Source of the DNA: a bacterium HR21
Lineage (GTDB): Bacteria; Bacteroidota; Ignavibacteria; Kapaibacteriales; HRBIN21
Reading direction: 5' to 3'
Length of the DNA stretch: 64,000 bases
NCBI GenBank assembly: GCA_002898295.1
Contig: BEHX01000006.1
Location: 62,001-126,000, forward strand
The translations under genes were made by a program, and so were the position numbers. Every line of letters starts with the position of its first letter. The stretch's first letter is position 1. This document shows, in pieces, positions 54,217-63,729 of this stretch. Below the pieces are notes generated by a model, which ran no database searches, was not told the origin of the DNA, and saw only the letters and a list, made by a program, of their open reading frames with translations.

Positions 54217-55428
54217 ATGACGGCACCGCAGACTTCTCCGACGGTGGAACCACGCCTGGAAGACCGGCAGGGGGCTCTTCCCATCCCTCCCGGCGTCCAG
54301 CTGTTGCAGCTGGTCCAGCGCCACTGGAAGTTCCTCCTCGGCAGCGTTGTCCTGACCACAGGAGTCACCCTGGGGGTGAGCTTCTTGATACCGAACTGGT
54401 ATGAGGCAACAGTCAGTGCCGTCCCATCCTCGCGTGGGCTTCCCGGCTTGGAAAGCGTCCTGGGAGCTGCGGCGGGAGTGCTGCGGGATATTGGTGCGCT
54501 GCGGCTCGGCTCCCTTGGGCAGCAGGGATACAATTTCCTGGTCATCCTCGAAAGTCGCCGGCTGAAGGACTCCCTCATTGAACGCTTTCGGCTCTGGGAG
54601 CTTTACGATCTGCCCGATACCGCTCGACACCGCCTCTACCGCAAGCTGGAGAAGGACCTGGAAGTCACCTACGAGCTCAACGGGAACTACACGGTCACGG
54701 CGCGCCATACCGACCCGCAGAAAGCAGCCGCCATGGCAAATGCAGCCATTGAGGTAGCCAATGCAATTGCTGCCGAGGTTACCCAGCAGGAAAGCGGGCA
54801 GCTGCGCCGGTACTTGGAGAGCCGACTGGCACGGTTGGATAGCGCCGCGGCACAGGTTGCCGATTCGCTGCGGCTGTTTTCTCGGCAGACGCTCGTGTTC
54901 TCGCCCCTCGACCAGGCACAGGCAGCAGCAAAGGCATTGGCAGAGCTCAAAGCACAGGCACTTTCCCAGCAGATCCTCTTAGAGGCTCTCCGCCAGGCAT
55001 ACGGGGAGAGCGATCCGGTTGTTCGGGCACAGCAGCGGCTGCTGGAGGAAGTTCGGCAGCAACTCCAGCAGGCAGAGCAGCGACCGGGCTTGGTTGGGGA
55101 TTTCCCCTTGCGGGAGGCTGCCGGTGTTGGGTTGCGCTTTCTACGCTTGTACACGGAGCTGGAGACCTACCAACGGGTGCGGAGTTTGCTGCTGCCGACC
55201 CTGGAGCAAGTGCGGCTCGATGAGCAGCGGGCGCGTCCGGTGCTCTACGTCGTGGATCCCGCGGTCCCTCCACAGTTGAAGGCCTATCCGAAGCGACTGC
55301 TCCTTGCCCTCGGGGCAGCAATTGGTTCAGCCGTGCTATCGTTGCTTGCTCTGCTGCTGTGGCAGCGGTGGCGGGAATGGCGAGCTCTCATGCAAGATGA
55401 CCACCTCCGTGCAGGACAGGAAGGATAA
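54217..55428 (+). CDS. Wzz-type polysaccharide chain-length regulator
   Basis: The product has 403 residues. Two membrane helices (~38-58 and ~370-392) flank a long periplasmic helical domain. The N-terminal Wzz domain shows WKFLLGSVVLTTGVTLGVSFLIPNWYEATV, and the C-terminal motif PVLYVVDPAVPPQLKAYPKRLLLAL precedes the second helix. There is no tyrosine-kinase domain. Wzz proteins set polymer length for O-antigen or capsule. The gene overlaps the O-antigen ligase/polymerase gene by 32 bases, a fitting partner. Confidence 0.9.
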   Translation: MTAPQTSPTVEPRLEDRQGALPIPPGVQLLQLVQRHWKFLLGSVVLTTGVTLGVSFLIPNWYEATVSAVPSSRGLPGLESVLGAAAGVLRDIGALRLGSLGQQGYNFLVILESRRLKDSLIERFRLWELYDLPDTARHRLYRKLEKDLEVTYELNGNYTVTARHTDPQKAAAMANAAIEVANAIAAEVTQQESGQLRRYLESRLARLDSAAAQVADSLRLFSRQTLVFSPLDQAQAAAKALAELKAQALSQQILLEALRQAYGESDPVVRAQQRLLEEVRQQLQQAEQRPGLVGDFPLREAAGVGLRFLRLYTELETYQRVRSLLLPTLEQVRLDEQRARPVLYVVDPAVPPQLKAYPKRLLLALGAAIGSAVLSLLALLLWQRWREWRALMQDDHLRAGQEG

Positions 55429-56800
55429 AGCACCGCCGGCGGGCTTCCTTGTGGGAGTCATCGCGCTCGAAGGCAGCGCTGCAGCGATTGCTGTGGCGAC
55501 GCGGCAAGAGCTCCTTGCCTTTGCCCTCGTTGTCGGGGTAGCGGCTGTAAGCGCAATGGTGCGCTATCCTCTCCTGTGGCTCTGCACCCTTGCGCTCGCT
55601 GCGATCCCGCTTTTCTTCCTGCAGGGACCGACTGTGGAGCCAACGGAGGTGGTGCTGGTGCTCTTCCTCCTGGCAGTGTTGGTAGGCTGGCTCCTTTGGC
55701 AGGGCGTCGTGGAGCGGCGCCGTCTTTTCCAGCACTGGGGTGATGTGTTGCTGGTGCTGTTCCTGCTCCTCTCCGGGCTGAATGCACCGCTGGCGCTCCT
55801 CAACGATGTCCCCATAGAGGAATGGCTGCGACGGTGGCTGCCAATGTGGCTGCTGCTTTCTTACATCCCGGTGCGGATGCTCGTGCGGACGCCTCGCCAG
55901 CTGTTGCTGCTCCTGATGCTGCTGCTACTTGCGGGGGTTGTCATTGCTGGAGCGACGGTGGAACGCTACCGGTCTGGGGTTGCTCTGGCGGAGTACGCCT
56001 ACCAGCTGCGCAGCGGCTATGCGCGAACGCAGGGCGAGCATTTTCTCGCCTTTGCTCTGGTCAGCTGTCTGATTGGGGCAGCGTTTGGGCGGGCGCTCCT
56101 GTGGCGGCTCTTCTTGGTGGGCTGTGCGATTGTCATGGCAGTTGCCATCGTGGTGACGTTTTCCCGTACAGCATGGCTTTCGGTCTTATTAGGCTTGGCG
56201 GTAGGGTGGATGCTTCTGTCGTGGCGGCAGCGGCTGCAGACGCTGCTGCTCGGTGGGGCACTGGTCGCTGTGGCTCTCGGAGTTCTGGTGGCGACCTTCC
56301 CACGGGTTTCCTCCATCTTGCTGCGTTTGATCGAGCAGCGCTTCCTCTCTCTTGCCGTGGGGAGGCAGCGGGATTTGGCCCTTCAGGGGCGCTTCTTCCA
56401 GCTGCAGAAGGCGCTGGAGCAGACCTGCCTCTACCCGCTCGGTGGACACGGTCTAGGGAAGGCGTTCCCGTACTACGAAGCGGGAGCTCGGCGGCACATT
56501 CACTACAGCTACATCCACAACGGCTACGTGGCTACAGCGTACCGCTACGGCATTCCACTGGCACTTCTGCTCCTTGTGGCACTGGGGACACATCTGGTCA
56601 ATGCCTTTCGGCAGCTGCGGCGGACGCCACCGGGTTCGCTGTGGCGGATGGCGGCGGTGACGGGATGTGCGGGGATGGTGGGCGTGATGTTCTCGCTGAT
56701 GATGACGGAAAATCCGCTCGACATGCGGATGACCACACTGACCCTCGCGTGGGTGCTGGCATTGGCGAATGTCTCCCCACCGTCGGCACGCAATGGCTGA
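55397..56800 (+). CDS. O-antigen ligase/polymerase family membrane protein
   Basis: The product is about 467 residues from the ATG at 55397. About twelve membrane helices are predicted. A large periplasmic loop at ~345-395 holds HGLGKAFPYYEAG and HYSYIHNGYVATAYRYGIP, the HN(G)Y pattern of the Wzy_C/O-antigen ligase superfamily. It either polymerises O-antigen units (Wzy) or ligates glycan to lipid A core (WaaL); sequence alone does not separate these. Being paired with Wzz favours a polymerase-type role. It overlaps the PBP2 gene by 8 bases. Confidence 0.85.
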   Translation: MTTSVQDRKDKAPPAGFLVGVIALEGSAAAIAVATRQELLAFALVVGVAAVSAMVRYPLLWLCTLALAAIPLFFLQGPTVEPTEVVLVLFLLAVLVGWLLWQGVVERRRLFQHWGDVLLVLFLLLSGLNAPLALLNDVPIEEWLRRWLPMWLLLSYIPVRMLVRTPRQLLLLLMLLLLAGVVIAGATVERYRSGVALAEYAYQLRSGYARTQGEHFLAFALVSCLIGAAFGRALLWRLFLVGCAIVMAVAIVVTFSRTAWLSVLLGLAVGWMLLSWRQRLQTLLLGGALVAVALGVLVATFPRVSSILLRLIEQRFLSLAVGRQRDLALQGRFFQLQKALEQTCLYPLGGHGLGKAFPYYEAGARRHIHYSYIHNGYVATAYRYGIPLALLLLVALGTHLVNAFRQLRRTPPGSLWRMAAVTGCAGMVGVMFSLMMTENPLDMRMTTLTLAWVLALANVSPPSARNG

Positions 56801-58609: not shown

Positions 58610-58617
58610 TAGCTTTG
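58610..58617 (+). promoter_or_regulatory. TAnnTTTG promoter box of the DUF2723 module
   Basis: TAGCTTTG, an exact match, 32 bases before the ATG at 58650 and 29 bases after the PBP2 stop. It separates the last module from the PBP2 operon. Confidence 0.6.
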
Positions 58618-58649: not shown

Positions 58650-61600
58650 ATGAGTCCACAGCGGATTCGGCTCGGTGGTGCAGTCCTGGTCTTTTTGCTC
58701 TCGGCTGGAACGTACATTGCCACGCTCCAACCGTCGGTGCCGTTCTGGGATTGCGGCGAGTTCTCTGCTGCCATTGCCTTGCAGCAGGTGCCGCATCCGC
58801 CGGGAGCACCGCTGTTCCTGATGGTGGGGAAGCTCTTCCATCTGCTGCCCTTCGGTGACCCGGGGTGGCGGATAAATCTGCTCTCCGCTTTGGCCAGTTC
58901 GGCAGCGTCGGTTCTGCTCTACCTTTTGCTGGCGCTGGTCCTTGAGCGGCTATGGAAGGTGCCGACGGGCTCTTGGGTTGATGCCCTTCACGTCTACGGA
59001 GCTTCGGCTGTCGGGGCGCTGGCGCTCACCTATAGCGATACGGTCTGGTTCAACGCTGTGGAGTCGGAAGTGTACGCTACCTCGCTCCTCTTTGTGGCTG
59101 CTGTGTTGTACCTGGGCTTCCTGTGGTACGTACGGGCAGACGAACCAGGGAGCGAGCGCTATCTGCTACTGGCAGCCTACCTGGTTGGGCTCTCCATCGG
59201 GGTGCATCTGCTCAGTATCCTCGCCGTTCCGGGCATTCTCTACTTGGTGGTATTCCGCAAGTACGGGGCAAATCCGGCGGAGGCGACCTTCCGCAACGCG
59301 CGGTATGTGCTCCTGTGGCTGGCAATCCCGCTGGGAGGCTTTGCCATCGTGTACTGGGGAATTACCCAGTGGTTGCCGGCGCTGCTGGCAGGGGATTTAC
59401 CGTTCCGGACCGAGGCGCGGGAACACCTCATCGAAGATAGCCCGGTGGTCACGCTCATGACGCTTCTCCTGCTGGGCTTTCTGGGCTGGCAGCTGTATCG
59501 AGCATACCGGGCACAGCGGGCAGCGACGGCGCTGGCTCTGAGTGCCTTCTTCGCCGTTGTGCTGGGATTTACCACGTATGCCCATGTGCTCATTCGGGCA
59601 AACTCCCACCCGCCGATGAATGAGAACGAACCTACAACGCTAGCACGGCTGATTAGCTACCTGGGACGCGAGCAGTACGGGGAAGCGCCGTGGTGGCCGC
59701 GGCGGTATCGGTACGACGACCCGTACTACTCGCAGCACTACTCGAAGTACGGCGTCTGGTACCCTCCGCGCATTGAGCGGGTACAGCGCCGTGACGGCTC
59801 CCTGGTGCCTGTTCCTCGATGGCACCGGATCAACCTCGCCGGGGAGTTGCGCTACCTGTGGGAGTACCAGATTTCGCACATGTACCTGCGGTATTTCCTC
59901 TGGAACTACCTCGGGCGCATGAGCGACGTGCAGGATGCCCCAGCTGCGGGTCCGCTGGCAACCAAGCGGGATGCCCTCCCGTACAACTACGACTCCGGCT
60001 ATGCTGATGCTTTCCCGGTGCGCTTCTTCGGCTTACCGCTGCTGCTGGGGCTGCTGGGGATAGGCTTCCACTTCGGTCGGGACCGGCGGACGGCATGGGT
60101 GATGCTGGTGACCTTCCTCCTGATGGGTGTCCTGGCAGCGATTGCGCAGAACCAGCAGCTTCCCCAGCCCCGCGAGCGGGATTACTTCTACGTCGGCTCC
60201 TTCCTCGTGTTCTGCTTCTGGATTGGGCTGGGAGCTTATGGGGTGACAGAGCTTCTGCGGCAACGGCTGTCGCGCCTTCCGGCGCTGGCTGTTGGGGCGG
60301 GGATCGGTCTCAGCGCGCTGGCTGCCCCTGTCAATATGGCGCTCGGGGGCTGGCGGATCCACGACCGCTCGGGCAATTACTTGCCCTTTGACCATTCGTA
60401 CAACATCCTCCAAAGCTGCGAGCGGGATGCCATCCTCTTCACCAACGGGGATAACGATACTTTCCCGCTGTGGTACCTGCAGGACGTGGCCGGAGTGCGC
60501 CGGGATGTGCGGGTTGTCAACCTCTCGCTCGGGAACACGCTCTGGTACATCCGACAGCTCAAGCACAAGGAACCGCATGGAGCGAAGCGTATCCCACTGA
60601 GCTTCCCCGACGAAGCACTCGAATCCGAGGACTCGCCCCGGGCGCTGCAGCCAGAGGTCGGTCCGGCTCGCGAGGTCTCGATCCCAGTACGGCGAGACAT
60701 CCTGGAGCGCTTCACCCAGGATACGGCAATCCTCCGCGAGGGGCGCATGCGCTTTACCTTCGTCGGCATGCCGTGGCGCCAGGAGCAGGGGCGGACGCTG
60801 TACTTGTTCCGGGTACAGGATAAGCTCATCCTGGACATCCTCCAGCAGACCCGCTTCGAGCGCCCGGTATACTTCGCCATCACAGTCGGCTCGGATGCCT
60901 ATGCCGGTCTGGATCGCCATCTGCGGCTGGAAGGGATGGTCTACCGTATCTGCCCCGTCCCGCAGAGTTCTGGACAGCAGATGGAGGCGATCGACCCGAC
61001 CGTCATGGAGGCATGCCTGCTCAATGTGGATAATACCAACGCTTATCACACCGAGCCGCACTACGGCTTCAAGTTCCGCAACCTGAACAATCCTCGGGTC
61101 TACTACGACGAGGTCCACCGGCGGCTCATCCTCAACTACCGGACACTCTACGTCCGGTACGCGATGTATGCCTTGGAACAGCAGGGCGATTCTGCCAAGG
61201 CTCTTGCCGTTCTGGACGCCATGGACCGTTTCATCTCCACGGAGCAGTTCCCCGTGTCGTACTGGTTTGCGTACAACCTCGCGCAGCTCTATCAGCGGGC
61301 GGGGGCTGCGGAGAAGGCACGACACTTCGCACTGATGGCGGCAAAAGCGGCTGAGCTTGTGGCGCGGACTCCCGAGATTGCCCAGCGGGAGACGGCTGTC
61401 CAATACACCAACCCGCGCTGGATTGCCGCGGAAGCTTACCAGCTTGCCGGGGAGTACGATCAGGCACGCCTCGTGTTGCAGGAGTTATTGGCAGAGTACC
61501 CCAATGAGCCGACTCTCCAGGCTCGCCTCGGGGAGCTGACAATTTCCCAGCTGGAGGCGCAAGGGAAGTACCGGGAAGCGCTCGATACGGCAGAAGCGCT

Positions 61601-61736
61601 GCTGACACGGTACACCCACTCAGCAAGCGAGACACTCCGTTCCATGGTGCCCCAGCTGCGTGAGCATGTTGTTCGGCTCCGGCAGCGGCTCGGTCTGCCC
61701 GAGGCAGCGCTGGCTGATACGACGCCGGCACGCTGA
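58650..61736 (+). CDS. DUF2723-family giant membrane protein (likely GT-C glycosyltransferase)
   Basis: The product has 1028 residues. The N-terminal ~250 residues are the DUF2723 domain: VPFWDCGEFSAAIALQQVPHPP with acidic residues after the first helix, as in GT-C enzymes such as PMT and STT3. About 13 membrane helices extend to ~570. A soluble domain and TPR-like helices (~830-1010; AYQLAGEYDQARLVLQELL) close the protein. The family is common in Bacteroidota and its acceptor is unknown. The next gene makes polyprenyl-phosphate sugars, the donor type GT-C enzymes use, which supports a glycosyltransferase role (inference). Confidence 0.88.
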   Translation: MSPQRIRLGGAVLVFLLSAGTYIATLQPSVPFWDCGEFSAAIALQQVPHPPGAPLFLMVGKLFHLLPFGDPGWRINLLSALASSAASVLLYLLLALVLERLWKVPTGSWVDALHVYGASAVGALALTYSDTVWFNAVESEVYATSLLFVAAVLYLGFLWYVRADEPGSERYLLLAAYLVGLSIGVHLLSILAVPGILYLVVFRKYGANPAEATFRNARYVLLWLAIPLGGFAIVYWGITQWLPALLAGDLPFRTEAREHLIEDSPVVTLMTLLLLGFLGWQLYRAYRAQRAATALALSAFFAVVLGFTTYAHVLIRANSHPPMNENEPTTLARLISYLGREQYGEAPWWPRRYRYDDPYYSQHYSKYGVWYPPRIERVQRRDGSLVPVPRWHRINLAGELRYLWEYQISHMYLRYFLWNYLGRMSDVQDAPAAGPLATKRDALPYNYDSGYADAFPVRFFGLPLLLGLLGIGFHFGRDRRTAWVMLVTFLLMGVLAAIAQNQQLPQPRERDYFYVGSFLVFCFWIGLGAYGVTELLRQRLSRLPALAVGAGIGLSALAAPVNMALGGWRIHDRSGNYLPFDHSYNILQSCERDAILFTNGDNDTFPLWYLQDVAGVRRDVRVVNLSLGNTLWYIRQLKHKEPHGAKRIPLSFPDEALESEDSPRALQPEVGPAREVSIPVRRDILERFTQDTAILREGRMRFTFVGMPWRQEQGRTLYLFRVQDKLILDILQQTRFERPVYFAITVGSDAYAGLDRHLRLEGMVYRICPVPQSSGQQMEAIDPTVMEACLLNVDNTNAYHTEPHYGFKFRNLNNPRVYYDEVHRRLILNYRTLYVRYAMYALEQQGDSAKALAVLDAMDRFISTEQFPVSYWFAYNLAQLYQRAGAAEKARHFALMAAKAAELVARTPEIAQRETAVQYTNPRWIAAEAYQLAGEYDQARLVLQELLAEYPNEPTLQARLGELTISQLEAQGKYREALDTAEALLTRYTHSASETLRSMVPQLREHVVRLRQRLGLPEAALADTTPAR

Positions 61737-62473
61737 TGAGTCTCGGTGCTGACCCGTACCTTTCCCTCATTATCCCGAGCTACAACGAGGCGCAGCGTAT
61801 TGGGACAACTCTGGAGTCTGTGCTCGCCTACCTCCGGCGGCAGCCATATGCGGCGGAAGTTCTCGTGGTTGACGATGGCTCGCGGGATAGGACACCAGAC
61901 ATCGTTGCTGCCTACGCTCCGGCGGTAACTCTGGTCAGGCTCCCGCATAACCGGGGCAAGGGAGCCGCCGTGCGGGAGGGGATGCTCCGGGCTCGGGGGC
62001 GCTATCGGGTCTTTACGGATGCGGACTTGTCTACCCCGATTGAGGAGCTCGAGCCGTTGTTAGAGCAGCTTGAAGCTGGAGCCGACATTTGTATCGGGAG
62101 CCGGGAGCTCGATCCGAGCCGTCTTCTCCGTCCGCAGCCTGCCTATCGGCGCTGGATGGGACGCCTTTTCCGCCGGATTGTACAGCTGTTGGTCTTCTTC
62201 GACCTCCCGCAGCTCCGCTCTGTAGAAGATACCCAGTGCGGCTTCAAGGGCTTCCGAGCGGACGTGGCGGAAAAGCTCTTTGCCCAGGCGCGGGTTGACG
62301 GTTTCGGTTTCGATGTGGAAATTCTCTACCTGGCAGCGCGAGCCGGATATCGCATTGTGCAGATTCCCGTCCGCTGGCGTAATGACCCCCGGAGTCACAT
62401 TCACCTGCTGCGTGATCCGCTGCGGATGCTCATAGAAGTTGCCCGCATTCGTCTCCTACACCGCCCGAGATGA
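61736..62473 (+). CDS. Polyprenyl-phosphate glycosyltransferase (DPM1/ALG5-like GT2)
   Basis: The product has 245 residues. GT-A fold motifs are LIIPSYNEAQRIG, VVDDGSRDRTPDIV (~43), FTDADLSTPIEELE (~91, metal-binding DxD) and VEDTQCGFKGFRADVA (~162). The last is diagnostic for dolichyl-phosphate glucosyl/mannosyltransferase-like enzymes, which load a sugar onto a polyprenyl phosphate. It lacks C-terminal membrane helices, so it works from the cytosolic face. It shares one base with the DUF2723 stop (TGATG) and overlaps the MFS gene by 4 bases. Confidence 0.9.
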   Translation: MSLGADPYLSLIIPSYNEAQRIGTTLESVLAYLRRQPYAAEVLVVDDGSRDRTPDIVAAYAPAVTLVRLPHNRGKGAAVREGMLRARGRYRVFTDADLSTPIEELEPLLEQLEAGADICIGSRELDPSRLLRPQPAYRRWMGRLFRRIVQLLVFFDLPQLRSVEDTQCGFKGFRADVAEKLFAQARVDGFGFDVEILYLAARAGYRIVQIPVRWRNDPRSHIHLLRDPLRMLIEVARIRLLHRPR

Positions 62474-63729
62474 GACCAACTGCAGAGATGGATACCTCGT
62501 TGCCGGCTGCCAGCAGCTTTCCCCACTGGCGCTGGAACCTGCGGATTCTCTGGCTGACTCAGGCAATAGCGATGGCGGGAATGAGTGCATTCCTGCCGTT
62601 TTTGCCACTCTACGTGCGCCAGCTGGGGCATTTCTCTGTGGCACAAGCGCAGTGGTGGGGCGGATTGGTGATTGCCGCGCCTTTCCTGACAGCGCTGGTA
62701 GCAACTCCCCTGTGGGGCATCGTTGCAGACCGGTACGGGCGCAAGCTCGTGCTCGTTCGGGCTGCGTTTGGGTTGGGGGTGACGGTCTTCCTGATGGGGC
62801 TGGCGCCGACCGTGGAGACGCTCTTCCTGTTGCGCTTGCTGCAAGGAGCGCTCAGCGGGTTTGTGGCAGCAACGACGGGATTTGTTGCCGCGGAGACCCC
62901 ACCGCAGCGAGTTGGCTATGCTCTGGGATTGTTGCAGAGCGCTGCCGCAACCGGAAGCGTGGTGGGACCCCTCGTCGGTGGGATATTCTCCGATGCCTTC
63001 GGGATGCGCTGGACGTTCTTCGTGGTCGGAGGACTCTGCATCGGCGCCGGCATCATCGTATGGAGGTTCGTCCGGGAGCAGAACCGACCGAGGCAGCAGT
63101 CTGGGTCGGCGTGGGAACCATTTCGCTACGTTGCTCACTCCCCGACAGTGCTCCTGGTTCTGGGTGCAATTGTCCTTGCCCAGGCAGCAATGGTGCTGCC
63201 CGCGCCGATTTTCCCGCTGTACCTCGAGTGGCTTGCTGCACCGCGGGGGCTTCTTTCAACGATCACGGGGATCTCCGTCGGTATTGCAGGGCTTATGATG
63301 GCGCTGGCGGCACCGCTGTGGGCGCGCATTGCGGAGTCCCGGGGCTCTGGGCATACGCTTTTCTTCTGTACGGCAGCGGCAGCCGTGCTCTACCTTGCCC
63401 AAGCATTTGCTCCGCACTACGCCGTGGTTGTGCTCTTCCGTGCCCTTGTGGGGGCAGCAGTTGCCGGTGTTTTGCCAACGCTCTACGCCGTGTTGAGCTC
63501 CCATGCTCCGGCATCCTTCCGGAGCAGCGTCATGGGGGTCGGCAGCAGCGCCACGTTGCTGGGCAATCTGCTCGGACCTCTGCTGGGGAGTGTCCTTGCT
63601 GCGTCGTTGGGGATGCGCTGGGTCTTTGTCGCTGCGGCTATGCTGATGACGGTGCTTGCGGCACTCAATCCGCGGGCACGGCTTCTGACGCGGCAGCTCC
63701 TGCTACGGGCGTGGTCACAGCGGCACTGA
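62470..63729 (+). CDS. Major facilitator superfamily transporter
   Basis: The product has 419 residues with twelve predicted membrane helices in two halves. The MFS motif A loop appears as ATPLWGIVADRYGRKLVLV (~78), the central loop is basic (REQNRPRQQ), and helix 5 has the GPLVGGIFSDAFG pattern seen in drug-efflux members. Substrate is unknown. It is coupled to the glycosyltransferase gene by a 4-base overlap, so a sugar or lipid-linked cargo is possible but not shown. Its last 15 bases overlap the convergent gene at the window edge. Confidence 0.9.
   Translation: MRPTAEMDTSLPAASSFPHWRWNLRILWLTQAIAMAGMSAFLPFLPLYVRQLGHFSVAQAQWWGGLVIAAPFLTALVATPLWGIVADRYGRKLVLVRAAFGLGVTVFLMGLAPTVETLFLLRLLQGALSGFVAATTGFVAAETPPQRVGYALGLLQSAAATGSVVGPLVGGIFSDAFGMRWTFFVVGGLCIGAGIIVWRFVREQNRPRQQSGSAWEPFRYVAHSPTVLLVLGAIVLAQAAMVLPAPIFPLYLEWLAAPRGLLSTITGISVGIAGLMMALAAPLWARIAESRGSGHTLFFCTAAAAVLYLAQAFAPHYAVVVLFRALVGAAVAGVLPTLYAVLSSHAPASFRSSVMGVGSSATLLGNLLGPLLGSVLAASLGMRWVFVAAAMLMTVLAALNPRARLLTRQLLLRAWSQRH

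Follow-up and report, generated by a model that had tools for sequence, protein, structure and literature searches.

A 64,000-nucleotide stretch of the genome of bacterium HR21 (Bacteroidota; GenBank contig BEHX01000006.1, positions 62,001 to 126,000), referred to below as the window and contained in contig C6 of the 1.83 Mb genome, encodes a long-form DUF2723 protein that we give an even chance of being the initiating polyprenyl-phosphate-mannose:protein O-mannosyltransferase of the general O-glycosylation system of Bacteroidota. Activity, sugar and acceptor are inferred; the assignment rests on the combination of a near-universal GT-C enzyme of the protein O-mannosyltransferase family, a universal DPM1-like synthase, a glycan that begins with mannose and an initiating enzyme that is missing from the described pathway. 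The gene (58650..61736, 1028 aa; positions are those of the plus strand of the window unless a genome, G, or locus, L, of our comparison is named) is followed on the same strand by reading frames for a putative GT2 polyprenyl-phosphate sugar synthase (61736..62473, 245 aa) and an MFS transporter (62470..63729, 419 aa), and the respective Pfam calls are PF11028 TMEM260-like (2.6e-55), Glycos_transf_2 (4.5e-33) and MFS_1 (1.8e-53). As the initial annotation had stated, the genes overlap by one and four bases, with TGATG at the first junction and ATGA at the second. An identical gene order is found in three close relatives (L100-L102) at 66-81% identity, so that the arrangement is not an artefact of assembly or of reading frame prediction.

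Membership of the protein in PF11028, whose current Pfam name is 'TMEM260-like, Protein O-mannosyl-transferase', is evidenced by a score of 187.4 bits against a curated cut-off of 24.2. In a sequence search of the PDB, human TMEM260 (9rql; further structures are 9rqm and 9rqn) was the sole significant match, at 1.4e-15 with phmmer and at 3e-31 with a 48-member profile. The alignment covers the catalytic loop (PSVPxxDxGE...HPPGxPLF) as well as a later extracytoplasmic stretch (GDxxxxxLxY...GxRxDxxxV), and these elements are common to both proteins. The predicted catalytic acidic motif, D34-C-G-E37 (58749..58760), is located in the first extracytoplasmic loop and corresponds to D-x-G-E in the human enzyme. 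It is followed by H49-P-P-G52 (58794..58805), which is fully conserved among the aligned long forms and shared by TMEM260, and residues D34, G36, E37 and H49-G52 show no variation across 48 homologues. Three further signatures were found in the long form: a DTVWFNAVESEVY motif at residues 130-142 (59037..59075) with nine invariant positions, a PRERDY motif at residues 507-512 (60168..60185) and, in the extracytoplasmic domain, a GDNDTFPLWY motif at residues 600-609 (60447..60476) that aligns with GDLPGNSLRY in TMEM260. A TPR repeat, assigned as TPR_14 by Pfam, spans residues 924-963 (61419..61538), and a TPR-containing C-terminal part is likewise present in the human protein, where it has been proposed as an acceptor-recruiting module (PMC11292533).

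The AlphaFold (AF2) model of the DUF2723 protein has a pLDDT of 88 and a pTM of 0.87. In Foldseek it retrieved PglB/STT3, ALG9, ALG12, PMT1/2 and Pmt4, all at a probability of 1.00, with modest to low TM-scores and with an E-value below 0.001 in only two cases, and the C-terminus separately matched TPR proteins. With few low E-values and modest TM-scores, the assignment of a GT-C fold rests on sequence and fold together. Note that TMEM260 was absent from the 50 best matches listed, its presence in the fold library not having been checked. The protein has the GT-C fold in common with PMT/POMT and PglB/STT3, but PDB sequence searches, with the profile up to E = 10, did not retrieve any PMT or STT3 entry. 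Membership in the PMT and STT3 families was hence rejected, the resemblance being one of fold only. Taken together, sequence match, fold match and invariant acidic residues support the earlier proposal of a GT-C-like enzyme, here more precisely a TMEM260-like glycosyltransferase with predicted catalytic activity. The suggested structural comparison with PMT, STT3 and ArnT was borne out for the first two, while the 50 best matches listed did not include ArnT. The statement that DUF2723 had no established acceptor is outdated, since TMEM260, the human family member (CAZy GT117), is an O-mannosyltransferase for Ser/Thr residues of IPT domains (PMC11292533).

Two forms of the family occur in Kapabacteriales. 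The long form has about 900-1100 aa and carries PRERDY in 145/146 and a GDNDTFPLWY-type motif in 130/146 proteins, and it exceeds human TMEM260 by about 300 aa. The short form, of about 620 aa and found in the same order, belongs to the same family and retains the D-x-G-E / HPTG motif, but it lacks both signatures (PRERDY in 0/6) and is colinear with TMEM260 over 430 aa (3.3e-18). In the genus of the window, the short TMEM260-like gene is located directly 5' of a GDP-mannose pyrophosphorylase gene (PF00483 and PF22640) at three loci (L095 6202-9191, L096 6211-9208 and L097 4278-7331). No short DUF2723 was present at the syntenic site of the window genome, between aconitase and GDP-mannose pyrophosphorylase (G000:C7; L179 1482-5439).

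In Bacteroidota, general O-glycosylation targets proteins outside the cytoplasm at D-[ST]-hydrophobic sites, and most known glycans start with mannose, followed by rhamnose (PMC12871550). Core flippase, oligosaccharyltransferase and ligase are described as undiscovered (2025 review, PMC12871550; also PMC8729774). We analyzed 506 kb of the window genome, comprising 40 predicted exported and 159 cytosolic proteins, with expectations calculated from their own composition. Selection for the sequon was evident in the exported proteins, where D[ST][AILVMT] occurred 131 times against 36.7 expected, an observed-to-expected ratio of 3.57 (protein bootstrap 2.54-4.70). The same ratio was 1.20 for the cytosolic proteins, 0.98 for the reversed tripeptide, 0.76 for E[ST]h and 1.01 for exported proteins of E. 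coli. The residue following D[ST] was mostly L, A, T, V or I and seldom R, P or Q, in agreement with the published sequon. Given this enrichment and the matching next residue, the lineage very probably uses the D-[ST]-[AILVMT] system of Bacteroidota (LFG type), to which DUF2723 would be connected by inference. As the window genome lacks the short form, its strong sequon signal is associated only with the long form.

PF11028 was present in 392/393 sampled genomes of Bacteroidota and in 180/180 genera. Among 14 control genomes only that of Bacteroides had a match, and the five plasmid matches were all from Bacteroidota. A DUF2723 match was missing in G047 and G228 only; in the former, a genome of the same order that is 98% complete, neither Pfam nor a full-length profile detected the gene. 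In our main reading, DUF2723 would use a polyprenyl-phosphate sugar at the periplasmic side of the membrane as donor and transfer its hexose, probably mannose, to Ser/Thr of exported proteins, thereby initiating O-glycosylation at the sequon D-[ST]-[AILVMT]. GT2 synthases would provide the donor on the cytosolic side, namely the unlinked DPM1-like one that occurs universally and, in this lineage, also the operon-linked, ALG5-like one, and the MFS protein may flip a lipid-linked sugar or be unrelated. Protein glycosylation at the outer face of the inner membrane, one of the options raised by the initial annotation, is the best reading. The wider proposal, that DUF2723 starts O-glycosylation throughout the phylum with a single mannose on D-[ST], so that the Bacteroidota system and human TMEM260 share one enzyme family, we judge to fall marginally short of an even chance.

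Several points weigh against DUF2723 as the initiator. The known acceptors of human TMEM260 are IPT domains (PMC11292533) and not a D-S/T sequon. Tannerella O-glycans lack the common core at their start, and the 2025 review proposes a disaccharide oligosaccharyltransferase, not a monosaccharide transferase (both PMC12871550). In G047, the single genome without DUF2723 that was compared in this way, the sequon ratio was 1.60 (1.15-2.20), below that of the window genome (3.57) but near that of relatives with the gene (1.83). As the gene is nearly universal, co-distribution cannot separate it from other core genes, and the survey of PF11028 outside the phylum was of narrow scope, consisting of the control genomes and plasmids. 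Gene and signal-peptide calls in the sequon analysis followed simple home-made rules, which should dilute the contrast rather than create it. Finally, the GT2 protein of the window appears ALG5-like, and ALG5 is linked to glucose in eukaryotes.

The first of these points leads to an alternative in which DUF2723 O-mannosylates a narrow set of folded domains and the general sequon system relies on another enzyme. The closest characterised relative is indeed domain-specific (PMC11292533), and recruitment of specific domains by the C-terminal TPR is conceivable. Nevertheless, presence in 392/393 genomes is more in keeping with a general function than with a specialised one, and the general glycan is one that starts with mannose and whose initiator is missing; we consider the narrow-acceptor alternative unlikely.

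The initial annotation had assigned donor synthesis to the linked DPM1/ALG5-like enzyme. This holds for the family, as the window GT2 shares the GT2 catalytic domain of DPM1/ALG5 synthases and looks ALG5-like in sequence, but it is not likely to be the universal donor enzyme. The protein contains DADLSTP and the motifs DTQCGFK and FDVEILYLA (FDVExxYxA), the latter two of which we take to be of ALG5 type and use as a lead only. It matches the Pyrococcus dolichyl-P-mannose synthase 5mlz at 1e-16, and is not the closest to DPM1 among the GT2 proteins of the genome, since an unlinked paralogue (G000 C1:317393-318046) reaches 1.8e-29. A canonical, unlinked DPM1-like gene was found in 36/36 sampled genomes and close orthologues of the window GT2 in 6/36, for which reason the latter was rejected as the universal donor enzyme. 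From these frequencies and the better match to 5mlz, we think that the unlinked DPM1-like gene provides the general donor, and that the linked GT2 adds to the supply in this lineage, with either the same polyprenyl-phosphate hexose or another one as its product. In G008, whose genome has a DUF2723-linked GT2, the DPM1-like gene is apparently split into two frames (C1 688025-688724).

That other hexose might be glucose. In this case, which is compatible with the other readings and concerns the sugar only, the linked GT2 would make polyprenyl-phosphate-glucose for use by the DUF2723 of Kapabacteriales or by a second enzyme. The ALG5-type motifs, the separate gene for canonical DPM1 and the tight linkage, including a DUF2723-GT2-DUF2723 arrangement in L163 and L165, speak for it. 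However, the window genome encodes a GDP-mannose pyrophosphorylase, DPM1 is universal, and the tentative ALG5 motifs do not fix sugar specificity in bacteria. We regard glucose as possible, though clearly the less probable sugar, and retain mannose for DUF2723.

In Kapabacteriales and relatives, a GT2 orthologue is found directly downstream on the same strand in 35/81 long-form genes. This linkage is clustered on the 81-gene tree, where 12 changes are needed, and is consistent with an old association that was lost several times. At 35 loci from elsewhere in Bacteroidota, DUF2723 had no close GT2 orthologue next to it, so that the linkage, which the initial annotation proposed to check across the phylum, is more than chance, yet not a property of the phylum. 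A phylum-wide DUF2723-DPM1 module was accordingly rejected, both by these 35 loci and by the 12 changes within the group. A rhomboid protease occupies the place of GT2 in 11/81 long-form genes, and this replacement, often before MFS, occurs in one subclade (L040, L045, L114, L123, L129, L138, L146, L152, L153, L154, L157, L168, L173). Two long DUF2723 paralogues are found within about 5 kb at L163 9968-17281, L165 8801-16204, L131 6803-13051 and L151 2234-13072. Note that L154 and L165 come from metagenome-assembled genome (MAG) records titled Bradyrhizobiaceae and Armatimonadetes that contain DUF2723 loci of Kapabacteria/Chlorobiota type and are apparently mislabelled.

The neighbourhood also bears on the question whether DUF2723 acts, in the manner of ArnT, on a lipid or glycan such as lipid A, the lipopolysaccharide core or another envelope glycolipid, in which case the operon would be an envelope-glycolipid module. 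In other Bacteroidota, an LpxA-like acyltransferase gene is located directly 3' of DUF2723 at four loci (L062, L066, L077, L088), a hint of a lipid A connection, a GT9 heptosyltransferase-like gene directly follows DUF2723 at nine loci (both identified by eye), and genes for Wzy_C and Wzz-like proteins are found upstream in the window. This is countered by a sequence kinship to protein O-mannosyltransferase that extends over two separate parts of the protein and by the absence of ArnT from the best fold matches noted above, and we hold an action on glycolipids to be still less probable than a narrow set of protein acceptors.

For the third gene of the operon, the best profile matches were MdtG, after which we describe the protein as MdtG-like, and exporters of the tetracycline type, all far below cut-offs. 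These matches favor an ordinary drug or metabolite exporter that merely shares the transcript, an explanation, limited to the MFS protein, towards which we lean slightly. On the other side, an orthologue of the MFS gene comes after DUF2723 at about 20 related loci, with GT2, a rhomboid gene or no gene between the two.

Whether the three genes have a promoter of their own, as first annotated, was assessed in the 69 bases that separate the DUF2723 start from the end of a PBP2 gene on the same strand. A TAnnTTTG box, TAGCTTTG (58610..58617), a candidate -7 element of Bacteroidota type, is located about 32 bp 5' of the DUF2723 start. The pattern is enriched in the window, with 16 occurrences against 6.7 expected and no shuffle reaching 16, and its chance expectation in the 69-bp gap is about 0.4% per strand. 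This enrichment supports the box as a Bacteroidota-type -7 element. A convincing -33 box was not seen upstream of the DUF2723 gene, and a sigma-70 promoter scan of the gap gave no match. As no clear -33 box was seen and PBP2 is so close on the same strand, a separate promoter is plausible at best. Just 5' of PBP2, at 54217-56800, the window has genes for a Wzz-like protein and for an O-antigen ligase/polymerase of the Wzy_C type. Some Wzy_C enzymes elsewhere are ligases or protein O-oligosaccharyltransferases. In the closest named loci (about 81% identity), which are Candidatus Kapaibacterium/Kapabacteria MAGs, the genes have the same order, with Wzy_C, PBP2, DUF2723, GT2 and MFS.

The gene joins a known family, in an operon whose arrangement is specific to the lineage, and what makes the finding of interest is the link to the missing initiator. 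In a literature search with preprints and subscription papers outside its scope, no paper was found that names DUF2723 or joins an O-mannosyltransferase with Bacteroidota. These bacteria are a major group in the human gut and in numerous soil and marine habitats. Those species that have been studied attach a single glycan to a large number of exported proteins, while papers of 2022 and 2025 still described the enzyme that adds the first sugar as unknown (PMC8729774, PMC12871550). A near-universal candidate that is related to a human disease gene makes the question of the initiator testable, and the lineage-specific donor enzyme of this operon could shed light on the coupling between supply of the donor and sugar transfer.

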